Positions 12,863-28,579 of a stretch of DNA of 64,000 nucleotides are shown piece by piece. This stretch comes from Pelagibacteraceae bacterium AG-422-N09 (GTDB lineage: Bacteria > Pseudomonadota > Alphaproteobacteria > Pelagibacterales > AG-422-B15). A program made the translations under genes and the position numbers. The stretch covers positions 1 through 64,000 of the forward strand of contig QCMV01000003.1 of assembly GCA_003213515.1 (NCBI GenBank), read 5' to 3'. Under the pieces are notes generated by a model. It worked only from the letters and a program-made list of their open reading frames with translations. It was not told the DNA's origin and did no database searches. The number at the start of each line of letters is the position of its first letter. The stretch's first letter is position 1.

Positions 12863-13482
12863 CACTTTCACTTTATTCTGCATTATTCATTTTTGCGACC
12901 ACTATGGTTATAACGCCTGGCCCCGCAAACTTATTACTTATGAGTGCTGGAGCGCAACATGGATTTTATAAGTCAGTACCCTTTGTAATAGGTGTAACTT
13001 GTGGGAAATTATTTTTAACAATTGGTTTAGGGATTGGATTTTTAACTATTTTGAACTCAAATCCGATATTGATTAATATTATTAAAGTAATTGGTACAGC
13101 CTATATATGCTGGCTTTCGTGGAAAATACTTTTTTTAAGTTTGCAATCAACAGAAAGTAATCAAAATGAAAAGGCACCTAATTTCTTAAACGGTTTAATG
13201 GTTCATCCATTAAATCCTAAAGGCTGGGCAATGGTAATCGCCGCTTATACACAATTCACTTCCTTTGGTAATACATACACTTCTTCAAGTTGGGCATTAG
13301 AAGTTATTATTGTTGCAGGAACCTTTTTTTTCATTCAATCAATTTCACATTCTATATGGTGTTGGTCTGGAAGTTTAATATTTAACTTTTTGAGTAATAA
13401 AAATCTAATTAGACAAATTATAGTTACTATTCTTGCGGTTCTTACAATTGGGACGGTAGTGTACAGTAATTTTTTTATCTAA
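12859..13482 (+). CDS. LysE/RhtB-family amino acid exporter
   Basis: TPGPANLLLMSAGAQHGF; NPKGWAM; about 6 TM; 4-nt overlap with pdxA. Confidence 0.88.
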   Translation: MTLSLYSALFIFATTMVITPGPANLLLMSAGAQHGFYKSVPFVIGVTCGKLFLTIGLGIGFLTILNSNPILINIIKVIGTAYICWLSWKILFLSLQSTESNQNEKAPNFLNGLMVHPLNPKGWAMVIAAYTQFTSFGNTYTSSSWALEVIIVAGTFFFIQSISHSIWCWSGSLIFNFLSNKNLIRQIIVTILAVLTIGTVVYSNFFI

Positions 13483-14239
13483 TTTTACTAAGATTGTTTT
13501 CTTCAACTGATTTGCTGAAGCTAGCAAATAATTTTTTTGAAAAATCATCTGTAGTTGCTGAATATTCTGGATGCCATTGAACTCCATAAAAGTATCCGCT
13601 GTAATTTGATAAACTGATAGCTTCAACTGTTTCGTCTTTAGCAACACCTTCAATAACAAGATCATTTGCTATTTTATCTATTCCTTGAGTATGAAGTGAA
13701 TTTACCTCAATCGTTGGCCTGCCGGCCAGCTTTTCAAATTTTCCATTTTCAGTTAAATAAACTTCATGCTGTTTTGAAAACTGTACTTCTGGGTCATCAG
13801 ACTCTGGGCATCTGTGATCCATTCTTCCTGGTACATCATGAATATCCGCATGAAGAGAGCCTCCCATTGCAACGTTAACTTCTTGAAAGCCCCTACAAAT
13901 AGCTAACATAGGAATTTCATTTTTAAATATGAAATCAATCATAGGGAGAACAGTCTTATCTCGATCTATGTCTAATGGCTCAACTATTTTGTCTTTATTA
14001 TAAAATTCAGGATAAACGTTTGAGAGACTGCCCGTCAGCATTACCCCATCAAATTTTCTAAGAGTATTTCTGTAGTCAATTGTTGAACCAAGGGCTGGCA
14101 AAATGACAGGTATACAGCTTGTAGCTTCAGCCACAGCTTTTATGTAGTTCGTTCCTGACGCATGATATGTCCGATGCAATTCTGCTTTTTCAATTACGTC
14201 GGCAAATACAGCAATTAGTGGCTTATTTTGAGTATCCAT
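13475..14239 (-). CDS. Class-I glutamine amidotransferase-like, gamma-glutamyl-GABA hydrolase (PuuD-like)
   Basis: DGVMLTGSLSNV; nucleophile region MLAICRGFQEVNVAMGGSL; GVQWHPE. Confidence 0.85.
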   Translation of the reverse strand: MDTQNKPLIAVFADVIEKAELHRTYHASGTNYIKAVAEATSCIPVILPALGSTIDYRNTLRKFDGVMLTGSLSNVYPEFYNKDKIVEPLDIDRDKTVLPMIDFIFKNEIPMLAICRGFQEVNVAMGGSLHADIHDVPGRMDHRCPESDDPEVQFSKQHEVYLTENGKFEKLAGRPTIEVNSLHTQGIDKIANDLVIEGVAKDETVEAISLSNYSGYFYGVQWHPEYSATTDDFSKKLFASFSKSVEENNLSKIR

Positions 14240-14287
14240 AAAAAAATTAGTTTACTAATATCAGGATAATATCATATAACAACTTTA

Positions 14288-15493
14288 ATGGTTATAAATA
14301 TTCAAGATAAACAATCACAACATAAGGCAATGTCTGCGTGGGATGACATCCTAGTCATCGACGATCAACTTTCAAGTGAAGAGAAAATTTTAAAGTCATC
14401 AGTGAGATCTTATTGTCAGGAAAAACTTTTACCTAGGATCATAGATGACAACAGAAATGAAAATTTTAGTAGAGAGATTTTCAATGAAATGGGTGAGCTT
14501 GGAATTCTAGGCTCTTATTTAAATGGATATGGATGTGCGGGCACGAATTATGTCTCATATGGGCTTATTGCTCGGGAAATTGAAAATATTGACAGTGCAT
14601 ACCGATCTATCATGTCGGTTCAAACAAGCCTAGTCATGTTTCCTATTTATCAATTTGGTACTGAAGCACAAAAAGAAGAATATTTACCAAGACTTGCAAA
14701 GGGTGAAATCATTGGAAGCTTTGGTCTGACAGAGCCTGATGCTGGTAGTGATCCTGGCGCAATGAAAACTAAAGCGATAAAAGTCGAAGGGGGTTATGAA
14801 TTGACTGGTACCAAGACATGGATCAGTAATGCACCCTATGCAGATGTAATTATTGTTTGGGCCAAGGATGAAGATAATGTAATCAGAGGATTTATAGTGG
14901 ACAGAGAGTCCAAAGGTCTATCAACACCCAAAATTGAAGGTAAATTATCTTTACGCGCTTCAGCAACGGGGCAAGTTGTCATGGAAAATGTTTTTTGTTC
15001 AGAAGATAAAGTTTTACCAAAAGCATCAGGTTTGGGCGGACCTTTTCAATGCTTAAATAGTGCAAGATACGGAATTTCATGGGGCGCTCTAGGAGCAGCA
15101 GAGTTTTGTCTCGCAACAGCTAGGCAATATGCATTGGACAGAATGATGTTTGGAAAACCTATTGCTGGTACTCAGCTTGTTCAGTCTAAACTAGTTGATA
15201 TGCAAACAGAAATTGCTTTAGGTCTACAGGCTGCACTTAGAGTTGGGCGTCTGATGGATGAAGATCAGTCAGATAGCAATATGGTAAGCCTCATAAAAAG
15301 AAATAATGTTGGAAAAAGTTTAGATATTTGTAGGAGTGCGAGAGATATTCTTGGTGGCAATGGTATTTCAGATGAGTATCATGTAATGAGACATATGGTA
15401 AATTTGGAAACCGTAAAGACATATGAAGGTACACACGATGTGCATACTTTAATTATGGGAAGAAACTTAACAGGTATACAGGCTTTTAAATAA
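14288..15493 (+). CDS. gcdH: Acyl-CoA dehydrogenase, glutaryl-CoA dehydrogenase-like
   Basis: [83 protein letters not shown]. Confidence 0.85.
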
Positions 15494-15495
15494 TT

Positions 15496-16860
15496 ATGGC
15501 TTATTTAAATCGCACAACAAAGCAATGGCAGGAAATCGATACAGCTCATCATCTGCATCCTTTTACTGATTATAAGTCGCTTGCAAAAGAAGGCAGTATC
15601 ATCGTAACAAAAGCAGATGGTGTTCACCTTACTACATCAGATGATAAACAGTTGCTTGATGCAATGTCTGGCTTGTGGTGTGTAAATGTAGGTTATGGAA
15701 GAAAGAATCTTGCAGACGTTGCTTATAAGCAAATGCAAGAATTACCTTATTATAATTCTTTTTTTAAAACAGCTACACCACCATCAATTGAACTTGCTAA
15801 AGAGTTAGCTGAAATTAGTCCACACGATTTAAATCATGCATTTTTTTCTTCAAGTGGCTCTGAAGCCAACGATACTGTTGTAAGAATGGTAAGGAGATAT
15901 TGGGATTTAAAAGGCAAGCCAAATAAAAAAACATTTATCAGCCGAGAATACGCTTATCACGGAAGTACGATGACTGGGATGAGTTTGGGCGGTATGACAG
16001 CGATGCATTCTCAAGGGGATATGATGCCTGGTTTTGAACATGTGTTGCCTCCTTATTGGTACAAGTATGGAAGTGATATGTCTCATGATGACTTTGGTAT
16101 TCATGCAGCTAATAAAATTGAAGAAAAAATAAATGAAATTGGCCCGGATAATATTGCGGCGTTTATAGGAGAACCAATTCAAGGGGCTGGAGGAGTTATT
16201 ATTCCACCTGATACCTATTGGCCAAGAGTTCAAGATATTTGCAAAAAATATGACATTCTTCTTGTTGTTGATGAAGTCATTTGTGGATTTGGTAGAACTG
16301 GAAACTGGTTTGGATCAGATACTTATAATATTAAACCTGACATTATCACTATGGCCAAAGGGATTACCTCAGGATATATCCCACTTTCTGGAATCATGAT
16401 TTGCGACAGAGTTTGTGAAACTCTAATCAATGAAGGTGGCGAATTTTACCACGGTTATACTTATTCGGGCCACCCAGTAGCTTGTGCCGTAAGCCTTGAA
16501 AATCTTAAAATTATCAAAGAAGAAAATCTTATTGAACAATCACAAAATGTTTCCGTTTATCTGGAGCAGCAAATGCGCGAAATTGAAAAGCACCCTTTAG
16601 TTGGTGAAGTAAGAATGAAGAGCTTTATTGGAGCTGTGGAATTAGTGAAAGATAAAGAAACTAAAGAAATGTTTGAAGACACTGGCACAGTTGGAACGAT
16701 TTGTAGGGACTATTGTATTGAAAACGGTTTAGTAATGCGAGCTGTAAGAGATGGCATGATCTTCTGCCCACCTCTTATATTCAATAATAACCACGTAGAT
16801 GAACTTTGTGAAAAGCTAAAAATCTCGCTGGACCAAACACTAGATCATATTACAAAATAA
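15496..16860 (+). CDS. Class-III PLP aminotransferase (omega-amino acid/diamine:pyruvate type)
   Basis: HHLHPFTDY, SSSGSEANDTVVRM, AYHGST, VDEVICGFGRTG, MAKGITSGYIPLSG (PLP Lys). Confidence 0.88.
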   Translation: MAYLNRTTKQWQEIDTAHHLHPFTDYKSLAKEGSIIVTKADGVHLTTSDDKQLLDAMSGLWCVNVGYGRKNLADVAYKQMQELPYYNSFFKTATPPSIELAKELAEISPHDLNHAFFSSSGSEANDTVVRMVRRYWDLKGKPNKKTFISREYAYHGSTMTGMSLGGMTAMHSQGDMMPGFEHVLPPYWYKYGSDMSHDDFGIHAANKIEEKINEIGPDNIAAFIGEPIQGAGGVIIPPDTYWPRVQDICKKYDILLVVDEVICGFGRTGNWFGSDTYNIKPDIITMAKGITSGYIPLSGIMICDRVCETLINEGGEFYHGYTYSGHPVACAVSLENLKIIKEENLIEQSQNVSVYLEQQMREIEKHPLVGEVRMKSFIGAVELVKDKETKEMFEDTGTVGTICRDYCIENGLVMRAVRDGMIFCPPLIFNNNHVDELCEKLKISLDQTLDHITK

Positions 16861-16863
16861 AAC

Positions 16864-17334
16864 TTACTTAATCTGCAGATAGTAATCGTAGTATTCTGTA
16901 TCTCGTTGATAGTTTAATGATTCATAGAGACTTTGAGCATTTTTGTTTGTTATAGCAGTTGACAACTCAACACTCGTTACACCTTTTTCTTCAGCAAAAC
17001 TTTTTGCAGCATTCATCAGCATACGGCCAATACCTTTGTTTCTGTATTCAGATCTGACATATAAGTCGTAGAGTATTATTTTTCTACTCAACTCCAGTGA
17101 GTCAAAAGTTGTATACAATTGGGTCATGCCCATACATTCTTTTTCATTTTCAATATAAAGTATTTGCGCCTCATTATTACTAAGGCGTTCCTTAATATAG
17201 CTTTTACAGGCTTCTACATTTGACTCTTTTTTATAAAACTGCCGATATAAATCAAAGACCTCACCAATTTTTTCAAAATCATCTGGCTGAGCAATTTTTA
17301 TTTGTAAATCGTCTGACATAAACTTTATCTCCAA
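16864..17334 (-). CDS. GNAT-family N-acetyltransferase
   Basis: LYVRSEYRNKGIGRMLMNAAKSFAEEKG; TNKNAQSLYESLNYQ. Confidence 0.88.
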   Translation of the reverse strand: MEIKFMSDDLQIKIAQPDDFEKIGEVFDLYRQFYKKESNVEACKSYIKERLSNNEAQILYIENEKECMGMTQLYTTFDSLELSRKIILYDLYVRSEYRNKGIGRMLMNAAKSFAEEKGVTSVELSTAITNKNAQSLYESLNYQRDTEYYDYYLQIK

Positions 17335-18482
17335 ATCGTTCGGTATATTGATATCACTAAGAAAATAAAAGTAAAAGATGTAACTGTATAGATAAAGCCC
17401 ATTGGCCCAACCGCATCCATGACTCTTCCTCCAATTAAAGGACCAATAAGCGAGCCAACCTCAAAGACCATCACAAGAATTGCTGTAGCACCTGCAACTT
17501 GAGACGCACTATATCTCTCACCAAGCATTGTGAGTGAAATTGCAAAAAGTCCACTTGCAGCGCCTCCCCAAATAAAACAGCTCGCTGCCATTACATAAAA
17601 ATTATCTAGATAGATAGCGAATAGAATTGGACAAAAGAAAGTAATTAAAACTGCTATATTCAATAGTAGTCTTTTATTAAATTTGTCCAGCAATACGCCA
17701 ATCAAGGGTTGGCACACCACACCGCCAACAAGAGTAATAGTTACATATTGCAATGCAATCTCTTGAGTAAATTGGTTCTTAATCATAAAAATGGGGAAGA
17801 AAGATACAAACATTACATCATCTAAACCGCATAAAATTGCTGCTCCAAAAATTGTTGGAGCTGCAATGATTGCTGCCAATACTGGAAGAGACTTTTTATC
17901 GGGTAATTTCGGGTCTTCAATCTCAAGCATAATAAGCGGCAAAATAGCTATAAAAGAAAGAGAGGAAATAACAATAAAAGGCAACCAGCCTTCAATTCCG
18001 GTTAAGGACAATACCATCGGGCCACTTGCAAAACCGATTACAAATACTGTGTTATAAATTGTTACTATTTTACCGCGATTTGTGTCATCAGCCATCGACA
18101 GCATCCATGTATCAAATGCGTTCCAAGCAAGGGCTCCAGCAAAACCAATTATGAATCTGATAACAAACCAAGATGTCAAACTATCAAAAATTGGAAAAGT
18201 AAAATAGAGAATTATTGTAAATATTTGAGCAATGATAATTGATTTTGCTAAACCTATCTTATGAATAATTATAGGTGTTATTCTTACAAATAATATTACT
18301 GCAAGGGGTTGTGCTACTACATTGAGGCCAATTTCAGTGTTGCTATATCCTCGTGCTTCTAAAATAAGTGCAAGTAGAGGAATTAATGTACCAAGTTTAA
18401 TGCCAATAATTAACGCACAGAGAAATAGGACGATATATGTTTTGTAATTTGAACCTAAAAGATTCTGAACTGTAGTATTCAT
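17325..18482 (-). CDS. MFS transporter
   Basis: 12-TM profile; RFIIGFAGALAWNAFDTWMLSMADDTNRGK; AGATAILVMVFEVGSLIGPLIGG. Confidence 0.85.
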   Translation of the reverse strand: MNTTVQNLLGSNYKTYIVLFLCALIIGIKLGTLIPLLALILEARGYSNTEIGLNVVAQPLAVILFVRITPIIIHKIGLAKSIIIAQIFTIILYFTFPIFDSLTSWFVIRFIIGFAGALAWNAFDTWMLSMADDTNRGKIVTIYNTVFVIGFASGPMVLSLTGIEGWLPFIVISSLSFIAILPLIMLEIEDPKLPDKKSLPVLAAIIAAPTIFGAAILCGLDDVMFVSFFPIFMIKNQFTQEIALQYVTITLVGGVVCQPLIGVLLDKFNKRLLLNIAVLITFFCPILFAIYLDNFYVMAASCFIWGGAASGLFAISLTMLGERYSASQVAGATAILVMVFEVGSLIGPLIGGRVMDAVGPMGFIYTVTSFTFIFLVISIYRTIWR

Positions 18483-19126
18483 GCAAACCTATCTTCATTA
18501 ACATAGATACTTTTAAAATATTTTAGAACTAAATTTTTACAAAATTCATTGGTATATATTTTTGGATCAAACAATATTCGCTGCCACAATCCATCGACCA
18601 TGGAGTGATAGGTTTCACTTACTTCTTTTGGTGTAAATTCTTTTTGACTAGTAATATTATTAATTTCACTTACTAACTTTTCCATTTGTTGAGAGTAAAT
18701 TTCATCTTGTCTTTGACAAATAGTCAAATAAGAAGGTCTAAACTTCACTTCACTATAAAATGCAATCCATACTGAAATTTTATTTCTATTGGCAATCTTT
18801 GAGCTGAAATCATTTTGAACTATACGTATTATTCTATCAATTGGATCTATATTCTTTTCTTCAAATATCTTTTGCCATGATTTTTTATATTCATCAGATA
18901 AATACTGCAGCGAACTTATTAATAAATTATCCTTCGATTTAAATCTAAAATTTGCGTAACCTTGAGAAACTTTGGCTCTTTTTGCTACATGAGCAATCGT
19001 AGTATCCGCCAGACCTCTTTTTGCAATTGTTTCTATCGTAGCGTCAATCAACTTTTGATGATTAACAGAAATCTCAGTTTCACTAGCCTGTTCTGTAGTT
19101 TTTTTATTAACTAAAGCCTTCATCAT
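18479..19126 (-). CDS. TetR-family transcriptional regulator (BetI-like)
   Basis: HTH IDATIETIAKRGLADTTIAHVAKRAKVSQGYANFRFKSKDNLL. The track start is 19144; MMKALVN starts at 19126. Confidence 0.88.
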   Translation of the reverse strand: MMKALVNKKTTEQASETEISVNHQKLIDATIETIAKRGLADTTIAHVAKRAKVSQGYANFRFKSKDNLLISSLQYLSDEYKKSWQKIFEEKNIDPIDRIIRIVQNDFSSKIANRNKISVWIAFYSEVKFRPSYLTICQRQDEIYSQQMEKLVSEINNITSQKEFTPKEVSETYHSMVDGLWQRILFDPKIYTNEFCKNLVLKYFKSIYVNEDRFA

Positions 19127-19171
19127 ATCGAATAAACAATACACAAAGATAACTATTAAAGATAGTTTTGT

Positions 19172-19189
19172 ATTGAATAATCATTCAAT
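19172..19189. promoter_or_regulatory. Predicted TetR/BetI-like operator, site 1
   Basis: Inverted repeat ATTGAAT-AATC-ATTCAAT in the divergent tetR / FAD oxidoreductase intergenic region. Confidence 0.65.
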
Positions 19190-19224
19190 TTTTATTATCA
19201 TGATTCCTAAATATTCTTTATTTT

Positions 19225-20853
19225 ATGGCAAAAAATACACACGATGTAATCGTAATTGGTGCGGGTCATAATGGTTTGACCGCTGCTAGTTATATGGCGA
19301 AAGCAGGACTAGATGTTGTTGTCCTCGAAAAAAACGAGTGGATTGGAGGCGCTGCTGTTAGTCGCGAGCTCTATCCAGGATGGAAATATTCTAACTGTTC
19401 ATATGTTTGCAGCTTACTTAGACCTGAGATCATGCGTGATCTTGAATTGTACAAATATGGTTTACAAATTATTCCTTACGAAGGTAGCGTAACAATGATG
19501 AGAAATGGGGACTACTATGCTCACTATCATGATCATGATATGACGATCAATTCTATCAGAAGACATTCCCACAAAGATGCAGAGGCTTATGAAAGGTACA
19601 GTCGCGATGTTTTAAGACAATGTAAAATTATTAAACCACTCTTAAAAATGACACCACCTGATTTAACTTCTTTTAAACCAAAAGATTTATTTGGAGCTCT
19701 GGAGTTCGCAAAACATTTTGCAGCTAAAGACGAGCTAGGAGGTCTTGGTGAAAAAGAAATTTATGACACTATTCGATTTTACACGATGAGCATCAGAGAC
19801 TATTTAGATGAATATTTTGAAAGTGATATTACAAAAGCTCACTTAGCTGGAAGTGCAATTATCGGAACTGCTCTTGGTCCTTGCTCACCTGGCTCTGCTT
19901 ACGTATTACTCCACCATTATATGGGAGAAGTAGATGGTTCTGTTGGAGCATGGGGGTACTCAAGAGGAGGTATGGGCTCTATCACAAAAGCAATGACAGG
20001 TTGTCTCAATGCTCACGGCGGTGAAGTAAAACCAGATAATGAAGTCGTTAATGTCATTACTAAAAATGGTCGTGCGATTGGAGTTGCCACCAAAAAAGGT
20101 GATGAATATTACGCAAAAAAAATTGTATCTAACTTAGATGTTAAAAGAACGTTTTTAAAAATTACTGAAGAAAGCTCTTTACCTGGTGAATTTGTTGAAA
20201 GAGTTAAAAACTTTAAAATTAGAGGTTCATCGGGAAAACTAAATATTGCCTTAGATGGCCTTCCTGAATTTCCATGTATTCCAGAAGGTGATCCAGGCGG
20301 TGGAGGTGATATGCACTTCACAGAAACTATTGAAGAAATGGAAGGAGCTTACGACGATTGGAAAAGAGGTGAATGGTCAAGAAATCCTTACGTAGATATG
20401 TGTATTCCTTCTAAAAGCGATCCAACAATGGCAGCTCCCGGAAAGCATTATATGTCTGTCTTTATTCAATATGTTCCATTCAATCTTGCAAATGGCGGGT
20501 GGAATGAAGAAAGAAAACAGGAATTTGGAAGACATATTGTTAATTGTATTGCTGAGTTTTCTCCAAATTTTAGAGATTTAATTAATCACTACGAAGTTCG
20601 TACACCATTAGAATTAGACAATGAAGTAGGATTGACAGAAGGAAACATCTTTCAAGGCGAATTAACAATGGACCAACTCATGTTTAATCGACCTGTGCCT
20701 GGATATGCGCAGTACAGAACACCACTTAAAAATATGTATATGTGCAGTTCATCAACCCATCCAGGGGGCGGAGTTATGGGTGCACCAGGAGCGAATGCTG
20801 CAAGGGAGGTTCTAATTGATATGAATATCGCTCAGACTGGTAATTATTATTAA
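19225..20853 (+). CDS. CrtI/PYROXD2-like FAD-dependent NAD(P)/FAD oxidoreductase (paralog A)
   Basis: DVIVIGAGHNGLTAASYMAKAGLDVVVLEKNEWIGGAA; C-terminal MYMCSSSTHPGGGVMGAPGANAAREVL. Confidence 0.85.
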   Translation: MAKNTHDVIVIGAGHNGLTAASYMAKAGLDVVVLEKNEWIGGAAVSRELYPGWKYSNCSYVCSLLRPEIMRDLELYKYGLQIIPYEGSVTMMRNGDYYAHYHDHDMTINSIRRHSHKDAEAYERYSRDVLRQCKIIKPLLKMTPPDLTSFKPKDLFGALEFAKHFAAKDELGGLGEKEIYDTIRFYTMSIRDYLDEYFESDITKAHLAGSAIIGTALGPCSPGSAYVLLHHYMGEVDGSVGAWGYSRGGMGSITKAMTGCLNAHGGEVKPDNEVVNVITKNGRAIGVATKKGDEYYAKKIVSNLDVKRTFLKITEESSLPGEFVERVKNFKIRGSSGKLNIALDGLPEFPCIPEGDPGGGGDMHFTETIEEMEGAYDDWKRGEWSRNPYVDMCIPSKSDPTMAAPGKHYMSVFIQYVPFNLANGGWNEERKQEFGRHIVNCIAEFSPNFRDLINHYEVRTPLELDNEVGLTEGNIFQGELTMDQLMFNRPVPGYAQYRTPLKNMYMCSSSTHPGGGVMGAPGANAAREVLIDMNIAQTGNYY

Positions 20854-22364
20854 TGTCAGACAATTATGACGTAATCGTTATTGGCGCAGGCCATAATGGT
20901 CTTGTATGTGCTAATATTCTTGCAAAAAAAAACCGTAAGGTTCTAATTTGTGAGGCACGTGAGAATTGTGGAGGACTCCTTGAAGAGAGTATAACCAATT
21001 TCGTTCCTCAGATACCACTGAGTGTGTCAAGCTCTCTTGGCGGACTGCCAGTAAAGTATAAAGCAAAGTCTAGTATTGCACTGTCTGAGTCTGGTCAACA
21101 TATTCGCCTAGTTGGAAACCAACATATTGACCATAAAGTTATTTCAGGTTTCTCTTCGAAGGATGCAGACAGATATGTAAAATTTCATGATAAAATGTCC
21201 TCCTTTTCAAAGGCTTTAGGTTCTTTCATGATGGCTTCACCACCAAGGATCATGAACAATACTTTCTCTGACTACTTTAAATTATTCAAATTAGGCATGA
21301 ATGTTCGAATGCTTGGAAAGAAAAAATTTAATGAGTTTGCAAGAATGATAGGGCTAAATATTGCAGACGAATTAGAAGACAATTTTGAAAATACTCTTTT
21401 GCAAGGCCTAATCGCCCATGATGCGGTGCTTGGTTCTAACTTGGGCCCGAGGTCACCAGGTTCATTGATTAACCTACTTTTTCGCATGGCCACACATGAC
21501 AACTCAATTTTTGGGGGAATATACGAAATTGATGGTGGCAGTAAAGCTTTTGTCGATACTTTACTTGATATCAGCAATAAAAATAAAGTTGAAATCAAAA
21601 CTTCTTCATCGGTTAAAAGATGCATTGCTGAAAATGATAAAGCAGTTGGAGTTGAACTTCACAATGGTGAAAAAATTTACGCAAAAAAAATTATTTCTAA
21701 TGCAGATCCAAGATCTACTTATTTTTCCCTTTTAGGAACTGAGAATTTAGATACTGATGTGAAAAGAAGAATCAAACATCACCGATCAAAAGGGAAAGTT
21801 GCAAAATTATCATTAAGTCTCAATAAACAACCTGAATTTATTAACTGCGATAAAGATGATTTAGAGAGCAGAATGGTGATCGCGCCGTCAATTGATTATA
21901 TAGAAGAAGCATTCAATCCAAGTAAATTTGATAAACTTTCTATGGAACCTATTTTAGAAATGAAACTAAAAAATTCAGACCAGAGTAATCCTGTATTAGA
22001 TATTCAAGTTCAATATGCTTCCTACGGTGCGCAAGAGGGTTGGGATAATATTAAAGATAACTATGTAGACGCAGTTATAAAATTAATAGTGAAATATGCA
22101 CCTGATATTCAAAGCTGTATAGAGACTAAAGCAATCGTTACTCCTGACGATATAGAGAAAAATTTTCATGTCACAGGCGGACATTGGCATCATGGAGAAG
22201 TTCAAATTGATCAACTTTTTATGCTCAGACCAATTCCTGGGGCATCACAATATAGAACCCACCTTGATGGACTATATATGTGTGGTGCAGGTACCCATCC
22301 GGGTGGAGGCTTAACTGGAATTCCAGGAAGAAATGCAGCTCAAGCTATTTTGGAGGATGCTTGA
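20853..22364 (+). CDS. CrtI/PYROXD2-like FAD-dependent NAD(P)/FAD oxidoreductase (paralog B)
   Basis: DVIVIGAGHNGLVCANILAKKNRKVLICEARENCGG; GLYMCGAGTHPGGGLTGIPGRNAAQAIL; 1-nt start/stop overlap (TAATG) with paralog A. Confidence 0.85.
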   Translation: MSDNYDVIVIGAGHNGLVCANILAKKNRKVLICEARENCGGLLEESITNFVPQIPLSVSSSLGGLPVKYKAKSSIALSESGQHIRLVGNQHIDHKVISGFSSKDADRYVKFHDKMSSFSKALGSFMMASPPRIMNNTFSDYFKLFKLGMNVRMLGKKKFNEFARMIGLNIADELEDNFENTLLQGLIAHDAVLGSNLGPRSPGSLINLLFRMATHDNSIFGGIYEIDGGSKAFVDTLLDISNKNKVEIKTSSSVKRCIAENDKAVGVELHNGEKIYAKKIISNADPRSTYFSLLGTENLDTDVKRRIKHHRSKGKVAKLSLSLNKQPEFINCDKDDLESRMVIAPSIDYIEEAFNPSKFDKLSMEPILEMKLKNSDQSNPVLDIQVQYASYGAQEGWDNIKDNYVDAVIKLIVKYAPDIQSCIETKAIVTPDDIEKNFHVTGGHWHHGEVQIDQLFMLRPIPGASQYRTHLDGLYMCGAGTHPGGGLTGIPGRNAAQAILEDA

Positions 22365-22366
22365 AT

Positions 22367-23566
22367 ATGAATAGAGATTTAAGATTTACGGCACTTAAAA
22401 AAACTCCTTTTCACTCTAGAACAAGCTTAGCTTCAAGAACAAATAAATATTATAACTGGAACGGTTTTACCGTACCCACAGAATACTCAACAACTGAGTT
22501 GGAATATACTGCCGCTAGAAATGGCACTTCAGTTATGGATCTCACGCCTATGTGCAAATACATGATCAATGGCAGCGATGCTAACAGATTTGTTGATTAT
22601 CTTGTAACAAGAGATTTATCACAGATGGAAGACAATACAGTTGCATACATAATTTGGTGTAATGAAGATGGTAAAGTGATGGACGATGGTACCATATTTA
22701 AATTTTCGAATACAAAATTCATGCTTTGCTGTGCAGTAAAGATTTATAATTGGTTACATGACTCTGCTGAAGGTTTTGATGTTTCTTGTGAGGATGCAAC
22801 AGACACAACTGCTGCATTAGCAATCCAAGGACCTACTTCTTGTTCAACACTAAAGAACTATGGAGCAGACGACCTTGAATTATTAAAACCATTTGGAATG
22901 AAACAATATAATATTAATGGATATGATGTTTTAATCTCGCGAACAGGCTTCACAGGTGATTTAGGATATGAATTATGGACTGATCCAGCTAATGCAGAAA
23001 ACATGTGGGATAGTATTATGGAAGCTGGAAAAGAATTAAAGATTAGACCTTTTGGTATGCATGCTCTTGAGATGACAAGGATTGAAGCTGGCTTTATTCA
23101 AACCAATACTGATTTTATGGCAGCTGAAGATTCCTTAAGACCAGTGAGAATGCGTTCACCGTATGAAATTGGAATGGGTTGGCTGGTTCATCTTAATAAA
23201 GAAAGTTACTTTGTCGGTAAACGCGCTTTAAAGAAAGAAAAAGAGACAGGTAATTCTGAAAGATGTTTAGTTGGACTTGACATAGATGGTGATAAGCCTG
23301 CAGTAGGCTCTGTGATCTATAATGAAAAAAAAGAAGACATAGGTATTGTTACGGCAGCAATGTGGTCACCTACTATGAAAAGAAACGTTGCACTCGCATC
23401 TCTGAAGCGTCCATATGGAATTAAGATAAAAGAAAATATTTTTGCAGAAATATATCACCCAGAGGAATTGGAATATAAAAAAATATGGGCAAAGTGTAAG
23501 GTTGTAAAAAGACAATTTTTTAGCCCTGAAAGACGTAACAAAGTACCTGCGGACCTATATGAATAG
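22367..23566 (+). CDS. GcvT/DmdA-fold aminomethyltransferase-family protein (folate-dependent demethylase-like)
   Basis: RNGTSVMDLTPMCKYMINGSDA, ISRTGFTGDLGYELW, ALEMTRIEAGFI. Internal ATG 22367 preferred over track start 22280. Confidence 0.82.
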   Translation: MNRDLRFTALKKTPFHSRTSLASRTNKYYNWNGFTVPTEYSTTELEYTAARNGTSVMDLTPMCKYMINGSDANRFVDYLVTRDLSQMEDNTVAYIIWCNEDGKVMDDGTIFKFSNTKFMLCCAVKIYNWLHDSAEGFDVSCEDATDTTAALAIQGPTSCSTLKNYGADDLELLKPFGMKQYNINGYDVLISRTGFTGDLGYELWTDPANAENMWDSIMEAGKELKIRPFGMHALEMTRIEAGFIQTNTDFMAAEDSLRPVRMRSPYEIGMGWLVHLNKESYFVGKRALKKEKETGNSERCLVGLDIDGDKPAVGSVIYNEKKEDIGIVTAAMWSPTMKRNVALASLKRPYGIKIKENIFAEIYHPEELEYKKIWAKCKVVKRQFFSPERRNKVPADLYE

Positions 23567-23598
23567 CCAAAAATAGGGTATTTTTTTAAAATTCAATT

Positions 23599-23616
23599 AT
23601 TGAACAGCTGTTCAAT
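23599..23616. promoter_or_regulatory. Predicted TetR/BetI-like operator, site 2
   Basis: Perfect 18-bp palindrome ATTGAACAGCTGTTCAAT, overlapping a TTGAAC -35. Confidence 0.7.
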
Positions 23617-23628
23617 ATAGGCTATACT
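23601..23628 (+). promoter_or_regulatory. Predicted sigma70-type promoter of the class-III aminotransferase, near-leaderless
   Basis: -35 TTGAAC 23601-23606, 16-nt spacer, -10 TATACT 23623-23628, ATG at 23634. Confidence 0.6.
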
Positions 23629-23633
23629 TCAAT

Positions 23634-25031
23634 ATGCCCAAATCAACTCCGACTCCCGAAAAAAAAGATCTCCTTAATACTCTCGACGATAGAATTCTAT
23701 ACCCATGGCAGTATCTTGAGTATCGCGGTGAAGACAGCAGGACAATCATTGATAAGTCAAAAGGAATTTATCTTTACGATCAAACAGGAAGACAGCTCAT
23801 TGATGGTCCTGGAGGAATGTGGAATGTTAACGTGGGACATGGTGTAAAAGAAATTGCTGATGCTGTTTATAATCAGATTACAAAAATGCCATACGCCAGC
23901 CCATTTACTGAGTCCACTGAGATAGCATATAACTATGCTTCACGACTTGTTAAATATGCGCCCGGTGATCTTAAAAGAGTATTTTTTACTTCTGGAGGAT
24001 CCTCAGCAGTAGACTCTGCATTAAGATTTGTAATGTTTTATAATAATGTTCGTGGGTTAAGAGATAAGAAACAAATTATCTCACGTCATGATGCATATCA
24101 CGGAAGTACATTTTTAGGGGCTTCATGCTCAGGTAAAGAAAGAGATAAAAACAACTTTGATTTTGCAGATAACTTAGTCCATCATTTGTCTGCGCCAAAT
24201 CCATTTAAAAAACCAGATGACTTAAGCGATGACGAATTCTGTGATCTAAAAGTTAAAGAGTTAGAAAATAAAATTTTAGAACTTGGTCAAGATAAGGTCG
24301 CAGCATTTATTGCAGAGCCAATCCTGGCATCAGGTGGGGTAATTGTTCCACCTAAAGGATATCATAAAAAGACAAGAGAAATTTGCACTAAGTACGATAT
24401 TATTTATATTTCTGATGAGATAGTAACTGGCTTTGGAAGATTAGGTCATATATTCGCTTCAGAAAATTATTTTGATTTAGAACCTGATATCATACTTTTA
24501 GCAAAAGGGATTACTTCAGGATACGTACCCTGTGGTGCAGTTGTTATTTCTGAAAAGCTTATGTCTCAACTTGATAATAAAGAAAAAGTTATATTCTCAA
24601 ATGGATTTACTGACTCGGGTCACCCAGTAAGTATGGCAGCAGCAACAGCAACACTTGATTATATTGAAAAAAATAACCTCCTTGAACATGTACAAGAAGT
24701 TGGCCCTTATTTTCAATCTAAACTAAGTGAATTAATTGATCTACCGATTGTTGGCGATGTACGTGGCGAGGGATTAATGGCGGCTGTTGAATGTGTAATC
24801 AGTAAAGAAAAAAAAGATCCTCTGAATTTACAATACGAGATTGCTTCTCGCATCAATTCACATTGTCAAAATCTTGGCCTGATTGTAAGGCCTTTATTTA
24901 ACACTTGCGTCATGTCTCCTTCTTTGATCATCACTAAGGAACAAATAGATGAGCTCGTAAGTATACTTAGAAAAGGAATTGAGTTAGCTACAGACGACAT
25001 CAAGAAAGAAGGCCTTTGGTCTGCATCATAA
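23634..25031 (+). CDS. Class-III PLP aminotransferase
   Basis: TSGGSSAVDSALRF, DAYHGSTFLG, SDEIVTGFGRLG, LAKGITSGYVPCGAV. Confidence 0.87.
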   Translation: MPKSTPTPEKKDLLNTLDDRILYPWQYLEYRGEDSRTIIDKSKGIYLYDQTGRQLIDGPGGMWNVNVGHGVKEIADAVYNQITKMPYASPFTESTEIAYNYASRLVKYAPGDLKRVFFTSGGSSAVDSALRFVMFYNNVRGLRDKKQIISRHDAYHGSTFLGASCSGKERDKNNFDFADNLVHHLSAPNPFKKPDDLSDDEFCDLKVKELENKILELGQDKVAAFIAEPILASGGVIVPPKGYHKKTREICTKYDIIYISDEIVTGFGRLGHIFASENYFDLEPDIILLAKGITSGYVPCGAVVISEKLMSQLDNKEKVIFSNGFTDSGHPVSMAAATATLDYIEKNNLLEHVQEVGPYFQSKLSELIDLPIVGDVRGEGLMAAVECVISKEKKDPLNLQYEIASRINSHCQNLGLIVRPLFNTCVMSPSLIITKEQIDELVSILRKGIELATDDIKKEGLWSAS

Positions 25032-25035
25032 ATAA

Positions 25036-26274
25036 ATGCTTGAGTTTAACCATCTGCTAAAAAACTATCAGGAGGGTAAAACTTTACCCCAAGACTTTTA
25101 TACTAATTCGAATATTTTTTCCGAGGAGATGAAGCGAATTTATTTCAAACAGTGGTTAATGGTAGATCACATCAGCCGTATACCTAACCCAGGTGATTAT
25201 TTTGTTTTTGATGCCGAAAAGGAATCCATCATAGTTATTAGAGGAAGAGACAATGAAGTGAGAGCATTTTATAATGTCTGCACTCATCGAGGATCAAGAA
25301 TTTGTTTAGATGAAGAGGGTTCAAAAAAACTTTTAGTGTGTCCCTATCATGCTTGGAGTTTTTCAGCAGAAGGTGAGCTTAAAGCTGCACGTTTTATGCC
25401 TGAGGATTTTAAAAAAGAAGAGTGGGGTCTTAGAGAGTGTCATCTTAAAATTTATGAAGGATTAATATTTATTAATTTATCTTTAGACGAACCGATGAAT
25501 TTTGATGAATTCATTGAGCCCTTAAAAGAAATGATAGAATTTCATCAGACGAGTAAGTCAAAAATTGCGATAAGAAAAAAATACCCAACTCACGCAAATT
25601 TTAAATTAGTTCTTGAAAATTTTCAGGAGTGTTATCACTGTCCCACAGCACACCCTGAGCTTTGTGCAGTACAGGACAAAGACTGGGTTGTCGCAATGGG
25701 TGCTGGAATAGGTACAGCGCCTCAAAAAGAGACTGATGAATATTTAAATAAAATTAAACCTTGGGTTGAGGAATGTAAAAAAAATGGAACTCCGTCTGAG
25801 GTTTACCTTGAAACAGAAGAAGGATTAAAAAAAGGCTTAAACAGATATGTTGATAGAACACCAATTGGAAATGGAAACTTGTCACAAACCAAAGATGGAA
25901 AGCCAGCTTCTTCATTAATGGGACAATTTAAGGATTTTGATGGAGGACTAACCCAAGTAAGCTTTAATCCATTTGGCTGTTGTTATTTCACAAATGATTT
26001 TGGCGTCATGTTTATTTTTAAACCCATCTCACTTCTAGAGTCTGAAGTGGAACTCATATGGCTCGTAAACGAGGAAGCTGAGGAGAATAAAGACTTTAAG
26101 TCCGAGGAAGTAAGCTATATTTGGGATGTTACTACCGCGCATGACACAACAATAATTGAAAATAACCAAGAAGGCCTTCTATCTCAGTCTTTTAAACCCG
26201 GAGTTTTATCTGAAAATGAGACAGCGGTAACTTACTTTTATAATTGGTATTTTACCAACATGCAGTTACCATAA
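25036..26274 (+). CDS. Rieske non-heme iron oxygenase alpha subunit (GbcA/CntA-like ring-hydroxylating oxygenase family)
   Basis: Rieske motif CTHRG...CPYHAW; catalytic region ENFQECYHCPTAHPEL; C-terminal AHDTTIIENNQEGL. Confidence 0.88.
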   Translation: MLEFNHLLKNYQEGKTLPQDFYTNSNIFSEEMKRIYFKQWLMVDHISRIPNPGDYFVFDAEKESIIVIRGRDNEVRAFYNVCTHRGSRICLDEEGSKKLLVCPYHAWSFSAEGELKAARFMPEDFKKEEWGLRECHLKIYEGLIFINLSLDEPMNFDEFIEPLKEMIEFHQTSKSKIAIRKKYPTHANFKLVLENFQECYHCPTAHPELCAVQDKDWVVAMGAGIGTAPQKETDEYLNKIKPWVEECKKNGTPSEVYLETEEGLKKGLNRYVDRTPIGNGNLSQTKDGKPASSLMGQFKDFDGGLTQVSFNPFGCCYFTNDFGVMFIFKPISLLESEVELIWLVNEEAEENKDFKSEEVSYIWDVTTAHDTTIIENNQEGLLSQSFKPGVLSENETAVTYFYNWYFTNMQLP

Positions 26275-26291
26275 TCTCTGAGCAAGAGAGT

Positions 26292-27647
26292 ATGAAGCAA
26301 CTTTATAACAAAGATATTTACGACGTTAATAAGCCGGTTAAAAGTTATTGGGAGAAAGTTAGTCAAATAGAACAAGACAAATATCCAAAGCTCACAACTG
26401 ATGAAACCTGCGATGTTTGTGTAATAGGTGGCGGCTTTACTGGAATAAGTACAGCTTATCACATTGCAAAAAATTACAGCGGTGACGTAAGATTACTAGA
26501 GGCTGGACATTTTGGATTTGCAAGCAGTGCAAGGAATGCTGGCTTTTGTTGTTTACCAGCAACAAAACTGTCGGTCAACCAACTGATCGCAAAGTTTGGC
26601 CTGGATGAAACAAAGAAGTTTTTTTCTTCCCAAATTGAGGGTGTTGAACTTCTATCCTCACTCATTTCTGAAAATAATATTGAGTGTGAAAAAACTGGTA
26701 CAGGCAATCTAGATGTTGCTCACCACCCTGACAGCAGCGAGGAACTAATGGAGTGGGGCAAAGATCTTAAAAAATATTTTGGCATTAACACCAAGTGGAT
26801 ACCCAAAGAGGAGTTTGATGAAGTTGGACATCAGTCAACTGAACAATTTGGAGCTGTTTTTACTGAAGCAGGCTTTGCAATGAACCCAATGGCTTTTATG
26901 AATGGTTTTGCATCAGCAACTGTAGATGTGGGAGCGAAACTTCATAGTTTTTCTAGAGTGAAAAAATGGGAAAGAAATGGTTCACATAAATTAATCACTG
27001 ATAGCGGATCGATTACTGCAAATAAGGTTGTTGTTGCAACAAATGGATACACAGATGAGTCTCTTCATTCAAGTTTTGCGAATAGAATGATGCCTGTTTT
27101 ATCTAATATAATTGTCACTAGAGAAATGTCAGAAGATGAGTTTAAACTTCAAAACTATAAAACTTTTAATCCAATCTGCAACTCTAGAGAGATCTTGTAT
27201 TATTATAGAAGAATGCCTTCCAACAGGATGTTATTTGGAACAAGAGGCGACACCTACGGTGATGAAAAGAGTGCTGAGCGAATGCAAGAATTCATGACAA
27301 AAAAATTTCGTGGGGTGTTCCCAAATTGGGACAACGTTGATATTGATCATTATTGGAGAGGCACCGTTGTTATGACACGTGACTTTGTTCCGGCATTTGG
27401 CGCATTAGAAGAGGATAAATCTGTATATTTTTCATACGGTTATCAAGCTAATGGTAACAATACAACTGTATACTGTGGTAAAAAATTAGCTGAAATGATT
27501 TACGAGTCAAATAGTGGGGAGACAAATATTTCAAAAGTTTATCAGGGCCTTTCACCTAAAATCCCACTTGGATTTTTAAGACTTTGGTATCTAAGATTTT
27601 ACTTATGGTATGCTAATCTCATGGATAGAAGCAAAAAAGAAATATAA
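26292..27647 (+). CDS. DAO-family FAD-dependent oxidoreductase (PuuB-like)
   Basis: CDVCVIGGGFTGISTAYHIAKNYSGDVRLLEAGHFGFASSARNAGF; HYWRGTVVMTRDFVPAFG. ATG 26292 preferred over TTG 26244. Confidence 0.85.
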   Translation: MKQLYNKDIYDVNKPVKSYWEKVSQIEQDKYPKLTTDETCDVCVIGGGFTGISTAYHIAKNYSGDVRLLEAGHFGFASSARNAGFCCLPATKLSVNQLIAKFGLDETKKFFSSQIEGVELLSSLISENNIECEKTGTGNLDVAHHPDSSEELMEWGKDLKKYFGINTKWIPKEEFDEVGHQSTEQFGAVFTEAGFAMNPMAFMNGFASATVDVGAKLHSFSRVKKWERNGSHKLITDSGSITANKVVVATNGYTDESLHSSFANRMMPVLSNIIVTREMSEDEFKLQNYKTFNPICNSREILYYYRRMPSNRMLFGTRGDTYGDEKSAERMQEFMTKKFRGVFPNWDNVDIDHYWRGTVVMTRDFVPAFGALEEDKSVYFSYGYQANGNNTTVYCGKKLAEMIYESNSGETNISKVYQGLSPKIPLGFLRLWYLRFYLWYANLMDRSKKEI

Positions 27648-27683: not shown

Positions 27684-28577
27684 ATGTTTCAAGTATGGCA
27701 AAAATTTTATGCAAGCAGTGATAATGCTAAAGCATATATACTTCTGTCACCTGCACTTATATTGGTTATTTTAGGAATGGCCGTACCAGTTTTTGCTATG
27801 TTTGCAATGAGCTTTACAACGCAAGCTGGATTTGAAATTGACTATAGCCCGACTTTTGATCGTTATCGAGAATTTCTTGATACCGGCACACGCACAGGAA
27901 CTATACTTACTACACTTTTATCAAGATCAATCACGATTTCTTTCTTAGTAACCTTTTTTACAATCCTAACAACATATCCAGTAGCTTACTACGTAGCTTT
28001 TTATGTAAAAAAAAATAAAATTCTATGGATCATTTTGATGACGATTCCTTTTTGGACTTCATATTTACTAAGAGTATTTGCTTGGAAATTAATACTTGGA
28101 AACTCTGGAGTAATTAATGCTAGTCTTATCTCAGTTGGATTAACCGATGAGCCATTAAGTTATTTAATGTATTCACAACTTAGTGTTGTGATAACTTTAT
28201 GCCATGCTTGGAGTGCTTTTGCCCTATTGCCGTTATTTGTCAGTTTAGATAAGATTGATCATTCACTAATTGAGGCGTCGCGTGACCTTGGTTGTTCAAA
28301 ATTTGAGACATTTATAAGAGTAACATTCCCATTAAGTTTGCCTGGTGTTATAGGCGCAATACTAATTATTTTTATACCAACCGTAGGTGATTTTGTTACC
28401 CCAGCACTCGTTGGAGGCACCGAGGGACGCATGCTGTCTAATATGATCCAAGCCTATTTTGGTCGTGTTAACAATTTTAGTCTTGGTGCGGCTTCAGCAG
28501 TGATTATGTTATTTAGTGTAATAGTCGTAACAATTATTGTAAATTTCGTGACAAAGAGACTTACTCAGAGATTATAA
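27684..28577 (+). CDS. potB: Spermidine/putrescine-type ABC transporter permease (PotB family)
   Basis: EASRDLGCSKFETFIRVTFPLSLPGVIGA (EAA loop); VTPALVGGTEGRMLSNMIQAYF. Confidence 0.88.
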   Translation: MFQVWQKFYASSDNAKAYILLSPALILVILGMAVPVFAMFAMSFTTQAGFEIDYSPTFDRYREFLDTGTRTGTILTTLLSRSITISFLVTFFTILTTYPVAYYVAFYVKKNKILWIILMTIPFWTSYLLRVFAWKLILGNSGVINASLISVGLTDEPLSYLMYSQLSVVITLCHAWSAFALLPLFVSLDKIDHSLIEASRDLGCSKFETFIRVTFPLSLPGVIGAILIIFIPTVGDFVTPALVGGTEGRMLSNMIQAYFGRVNNFSLGAASAVIMLFSVIVVTIIVNFVTKRLTQRL

Positions 28578-28579
28578 TT

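Follow-up and report, generated by a model that had tools for sequence, protein, structure and literature searches.

Two matching 18-bp palindromes as predicted operators of a BetI-related TetR repressor in a Pelagibacterales genome

The palindromes ATTGAATAATCATTCAAT (operator 1, 19172–19189, between tetR and fad1) and ATTGAACAGCTGTTCAAT (operator 2, 23599–23616, 5' of an aminotransferase gene) are, on comparative sequence evidence, very probably bound as operators by the BetI-related TetR repressor encoded next to them. Through them this regulator would probably control the operon that encodes it and two neighbouring catabolic operons; as a local regulon, the arrangement is clean but ordinary.

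A preliminary description of the window (the whole analysed stretch of 64,000 nucleotides) had placed both palindromes here, and their positions and letters are read exactly so. It had also described common arms, ATTGAA-N6-TTCAAT, which are indeed present at both sites and occur twice in the window against 0.06 expected. Site 2 is a perfect palindrome (nine of nine pairs complementary), and site 1 an imperfect one (eight of nine, the mismatched pair lying near the centre). The window contains two copies of the exact pattern ATTGAAYNNNNRTTCAAT for 0.02 expected, and none of 100 shuffles reaches two; allowing two mismatches gives 4 matches for 4.75 expected, which is background, so that the evidence lies in the full site alone. 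Across the genome (1.22 Mb, 85% complete) these two loci hold the only exact matches and the reversed-pattern control gives none; the motif is thus not at background frequency. Chance palindromes are ruled out by the shuffles, the genome-wide uniqueness and this control. Within one mismatch of the full pattern no further member of the regulon was found, the genome adding a single site, inside an ORF, and the absence of a comparable site 5' of the other island genes, noted earlier by eye, holds. Upstream of operator 2 lies an extra half-site, TTCAAT (23592–23597, minus strand), kept in all genomes but G020.

At both sites the left half-site is the best -35 hexamer in a consensus scan. The inferred promoter of fad1 (19173–19201, plus strand), which is conserved in the alignment, has its -35 TTGAAT (19173–19178) on the left half-site of operator 1, followed after 17 bp by the -10 TATCAT (19196–19201). 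That of the aminotransferase operon (23600–23628, plus strand; scan and alignment) has its -35 TTGAAC (23600–23605) on the left half-site of operator 2 and, again after 17 bp, the -10 TATACT (23623–23628), which is TATAAT in many relatives, in line with the proposal that site 2 lies over the -35 region. On the minus strand, the right half-site of operator 1 would provide the -35 (TTGAAT, 19188–19183) of a candidate tetR promoter (19159–19188), read from the sequence with an 18-bp spacer and a weak -10, TATCTT (19164–19159); it matches the consensus at 8 of 12 bases, too few to pass the scan threshold. At both sites the palindrome fills much of the gap between -35 and -10, which fits repression by blocking RNA polymerase. 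Besides, only 5 nt separate the end of the aminotransferase -10 from the ATG, and nearly all relatives keep this distance; as the start (23623–23636) also lacks a Shine-Dalgarno sequence, the predicted aminotransferase mRNA is probably leaderless.

The gene tetR (18479–19126, minus strand; 215 aa from the ATG at 19126) is overlapped at its end by 4 bp by an MFS transporter gene (17325–18482, minus strand; Pfam, order conserved). This overlap indicates one operon, in which the MFS gene should share the control of tetR; site 1, rightly described as the tetR/fad1 intergenic site, also heads a tetR-MFS operon. On the plus strand, Pfam and curated families identify fad1 (19225–20853), an FAD-dependent oxidoreductase of the CrtO/CrtI-like family, fad2 (20853–22364), a second FAD-dependent oxidoreductase, and, with conservation in addition, a gcvT-like folate-dependent aminomethyltransferase/demethylase (22280–23566). 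As listed, the gcvT ORF begins with GTG and overlaps fad2 by 85 bp (22280–22364); its conserved part begins at about 22367, so that the true start is probably later. Then come, on the same strand, the class-III aminotransferase (23634–25031; PRK07036, over the cut-off), a Rieske oxygenase (25036–26274) whose nearest curated family is the glycine betaine monooxygenase GbcA, below cut-off, a DAO-type FAD oxidoreductase (26244–27647; Pfam and curated families) and polyamine-type ABC transporter genes, two permeases and an ATPase (27684–30480). The latter, with gaps of 36, 2 and 2 bp and an order conserved in relatives, are probably the end of the second operon. The blocks 19225–23566 and 23634–27647 had been proposed to be governed by the two sites; comparative evidence supports this, except that the second block probably extends to 30480.

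Taken together, the gene families point to amine oxidation and folate-linked demethylation as the predicted function, and orthologues of several of the target genes adjoin relatives of tetR in other families. As to the identity of the island, the homarine operon is at most a lead. The wider neighbours (13475–16860 and 31701–35730) encode a gamma-glutamyl-GABA hydrolase-like protein, an acyl-CoA dehydrogenase, a second aminotransferase, an amidase, a second Rieske-type oxygenase catalytic domain and a glutamine synthetase-like protein, which suggests a wider amine-catabolism island devoid of this operator. In two other assemblies the aminotransferase gene is split or frameshifted (G007, contig C1, 17351–18741; G063, contig C8, 25677–27069), either genuinely or through an assembly error.

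Conservation was followed in 43 genomes of the genus, uncultured Pelagibacterales (SAR11 order) known mostly as single-cell genomes. The exact motif is present in 34 of them, the reversed-pattern control in none, and among the matches listed every one falls on one of the same two positions, about 4.43 kb apart where one contig holds both. All ten genomes at least 90% complete carry at least one site. Nine genomes have no site: tetR is missing from seven of them, and the other two (G028 and G035) have only a cut tetR, the locus being broken by a contig end. Conservation at the orthologous promoters had been put forward as a check of the prediction: both sites are kept in the genus, and site 1 also in sister genera, down to a TetR identity of 56–61%.

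The tetR-fad1 intergenic stretch TGTATTGAATAATCATTCAA, operator 1 included, is identical in 33 of 33 genus sequences, while in these same sequences TetR identity falls to about 70% and the DNA flanking the stretch varies freely. In sister genera (TetR identity 56–80%) the arms of site 1 are kept and the spacer is altered in the more distant ones, to ATTGAACATTCATTCAAT or ATTGAATATTCATTCAAT read in the fad1 direction. Among 26 distinct sequences of site 2 the 12 arm bases never vary, whereas each of the six inner columns does, spacer variants occurring in G020, G031 and G068. In G068 (L119/L167) both seventh positions differ in a symmetric manner (C to T in one half, G to A in the other), turning ATTGAAC..GTTCAAT into ATTGAAT..ATTCAAT. 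All 12 arm columns are invariant at site 2 and 11 of the 12 at site 1, where an alignment gap alone accounts for the remaining one; among the other intergenic columns the counts are 12 of 52 and 15 of 87; the Fisher p values (about 6e-7 and 8e-7) overstate the certainty since the columns are related by descent.

Three sister genomes (G066, G084 and G089) have the two operons fused, the aminotransferase gene directly following gcvT. Site 1 is kept, site 2 is absent, and a GGAGGT-type Shine-Dalgarno sequence stands in place of the aminotransferase promoter; such starts, devoid of operator, are seen at about 8750–8790 of L166, 10172–10190 of L168 and 10021–10035 of L169. At the aminotransferase gene, operator plus promoter and Shine-Dalgarno sequence thus appear mutually exclusive. 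In the fused genomes operator 1 alone can control both blocks, which further supports their co-regulation. Within Pelagibacterales, matches to this tetR are confined to the host's own family: about 350 genomes sampled elsewhere in the order give none at E 1e-30.

That the regulator is "TetR/BetI-like", as first described, stands insofar as it is a relative of BetI, but on sequence criteria it is not BetI itself. Pfam recognizes TetR_N (PF00440; 40.3 bits for a cut-off of 24) and the BetI-type C-terminal domain TetR_C_6, and the top Foldseek matches of the predicted structure are TetR regulators, in a model whose DNA-binding part has a pLDDT below 60. The protein could then be taken for BetI, with the sites as choline-responsive bet boxes: BetI is its best curated-family match, and the ATTGA/TCAAT half-sites are those found 5' of BetI genes. 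Yet the score against the BetI equivalog TIGR03384 is 107.8 bits for a cut-off of 201.3, and in a tree of 53 proteins (bootstrap not fully settled) 23 genuine BetI stand on one side of a 100/100 branch, TetR and 27 relatives on the other; two further rows that group with BetI are BetI themselves. Moreover G605, G694 and G733 each carry a genuine BetI plus a relative of TetR placed in its clade, the recognition helix is NF-x-F-KSK and not of the HYF type of BetI, and the Pfam matches of the neighbours examined (11250–35730) name no choline dehydrogenase nor betaine aldehyde dehydrogenase. No genuine BetI was found in the host genome. We therefore consider it quite unlikely that the regulator is BetI.

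Another factor might bind the palindromes, either the second of the two TetR-family proteins that pass the Pfam cut-off in this genome (on G000 contig C17) or an unseen regulator, all the more as the identity of the binder is deduced from comparison. Nevertheless the sites are found only beside this tetR and are lost where it is lost, tetR genes commonly have their operator in the intergenic region shared with a divergent gene, and distant relatives have like sites beside their own tetR; such a binder is very unlikely. The idea that promoter hexamers only are conserved, the palindromy being incidental, draws on the coincidence of the left halves with the -35 hexamers. But the right halves are equally invariant though they lie in the spacer, where a promoter needs little sequence, so that their conservation points to a bound protein; the symmetric covariation at L119/L167 and the lack of chance occurrences likewise oppose this idea, whose probability we regard as next to negligible. 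Binding of both palindromes by the adjacent TetR thus is the reading we retain.

The TTGAA/TTCAA half-sites mentioned earlier for BetI operators prove right in kind, both from the footprinted betI box ATTGACGCGTCAAT (PMC12442346) and from 31 alphaproteobacterial loci of genuine BetI genes, compared with a reversed control. A 14-bp core of the ATTGA-N4-TCAAT type, usually within ATTGATTGA-N4-TCAAT, is present at 12 of the 31 loci, and an 18-bp site of the ATTGA-N8-TCAAT type without this core at 6 of the 31, the reversed control being zero in both cases; at L228, L234, L236, L237 and L239 the 18-bp form replaces the 14-bp box. Sites 1 and 2, of 18 bp with N8, do not match the 14-bp box. A clean split with 14 bp for BetI and 18 bp for the present subfamily is ruled out by the six BetI loci with 18-bp sites: judged from sequence, the half-sites are BetI-type, and the 18-bp spacing is not peculiar to this regulator but occurs as a minority form across the wider group.

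The SAR11 system resembles BetI and its box, known from E. coli, P. aeruginosa, S. meliloti and Ruegeria pomeroyi (BetI1; PMC12442346), by the TetR family with a BetI-type C-terminal domain, by the ATTGA/TCAAT half-sites, by an operator over the -35 region and by a regulator gene beside its targets. It differs in that its TetR is outside the BetI clade and far under the BetI cut-off, in that its predicted targets are not the choline-to-betaine genes, and in its 18-bp sites, against the commoner 14 bp of BetI. With the betI2-betTA divergon of R. pomeroyi it shares the divergent layout and an operator in the common intergenic region; the BetI2 boxes have in common AAACTTGAAC, which contains TTGAAC, a likeness judged on this shared part. 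However, the same source describes two overlapping boxes for BetI2, against one per promoter in SAR11, and choline as its effector (PMC12442346). Our literature search found nothing direct on this operator or on a SAR11 BetI-like regulon.

More distant alphaproteobacterial relatives (G694, G558, G605, G412 and others) belong to the same subfamily by the tree, and many adjoin fad1, fad2, gcvT, dao, Rieske or ABC genes. The 18-bp site occurs in some of them: G694 carries GTTGAACGCTGGTTCAAA between tetR and a divergent dao, and G558 carries ATTGAATGGACATTCAAT 5' of tetR. On the other hand their protein identity to the SAR11 TetR is only about 25–39% and most lack a recognizable 18-bp site; it is absent in about 20 of 24 upstream regions of distant relatives, so that only part of the subfamily has the motif. 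G412 has instead a 24-bp palindrome, CATTGATTGAACGTTCAATCAATG, and all four species examined in one distant genus have a paired TGAAY-N4-RTTCA, 19 bp apart, 5' of fad1. These paired palindromes (L191–L194), about 30–90 bp upstream of fad1, recall the paired boxes of R. pomeroyi BetI2.

In the mechanism we propose, a TetR dimer would bind each palindrome and block RNA polymerase. At site 1 it would silence the divergent fad1-fad2-gcvT operon on one side and, by autoregulation, tetR-MFS on the other, and at site 2 the operon of the aminotransferase, Rieske, DAO and ABC transporter genes. As inducer we envisage the substrate taken up by the cell, or an early intermediate; it would bind the C-terminal domain and release the repressor, and is most likely a quaternary or methylated amine or else resembles a polyamine. 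We infer a repressor rather than an activator from the position of the sites and from the habit of the family.

On balance we lean, with modest confidence, towards a broader picture, in which an undescribed BetI-related subfamily controls, in several alphaproteobacterial families, a catabolic module of FAD oxidoreductases, GcvT, aminotransferase and Rieske proteins. Some of its members would use the BetI half-site at the 18-bp spacing. In the SAR11 family studied here, the splitting of one operon into two, or the merging of two into one, would have brought the gain or loss of the second operator along with an internal promoter.

The operator being short and strictly conserved, the prediction is testable with one protein and two oligonucleotides. 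SAR11-type genomes have very few regulators, two TetR in this case, so that a complete and sharply defined regulon of two operators is useful: it indicates the genes expected to respond jointly and helps to focus the search for what this uncharacterised marine catabolic island degrades.
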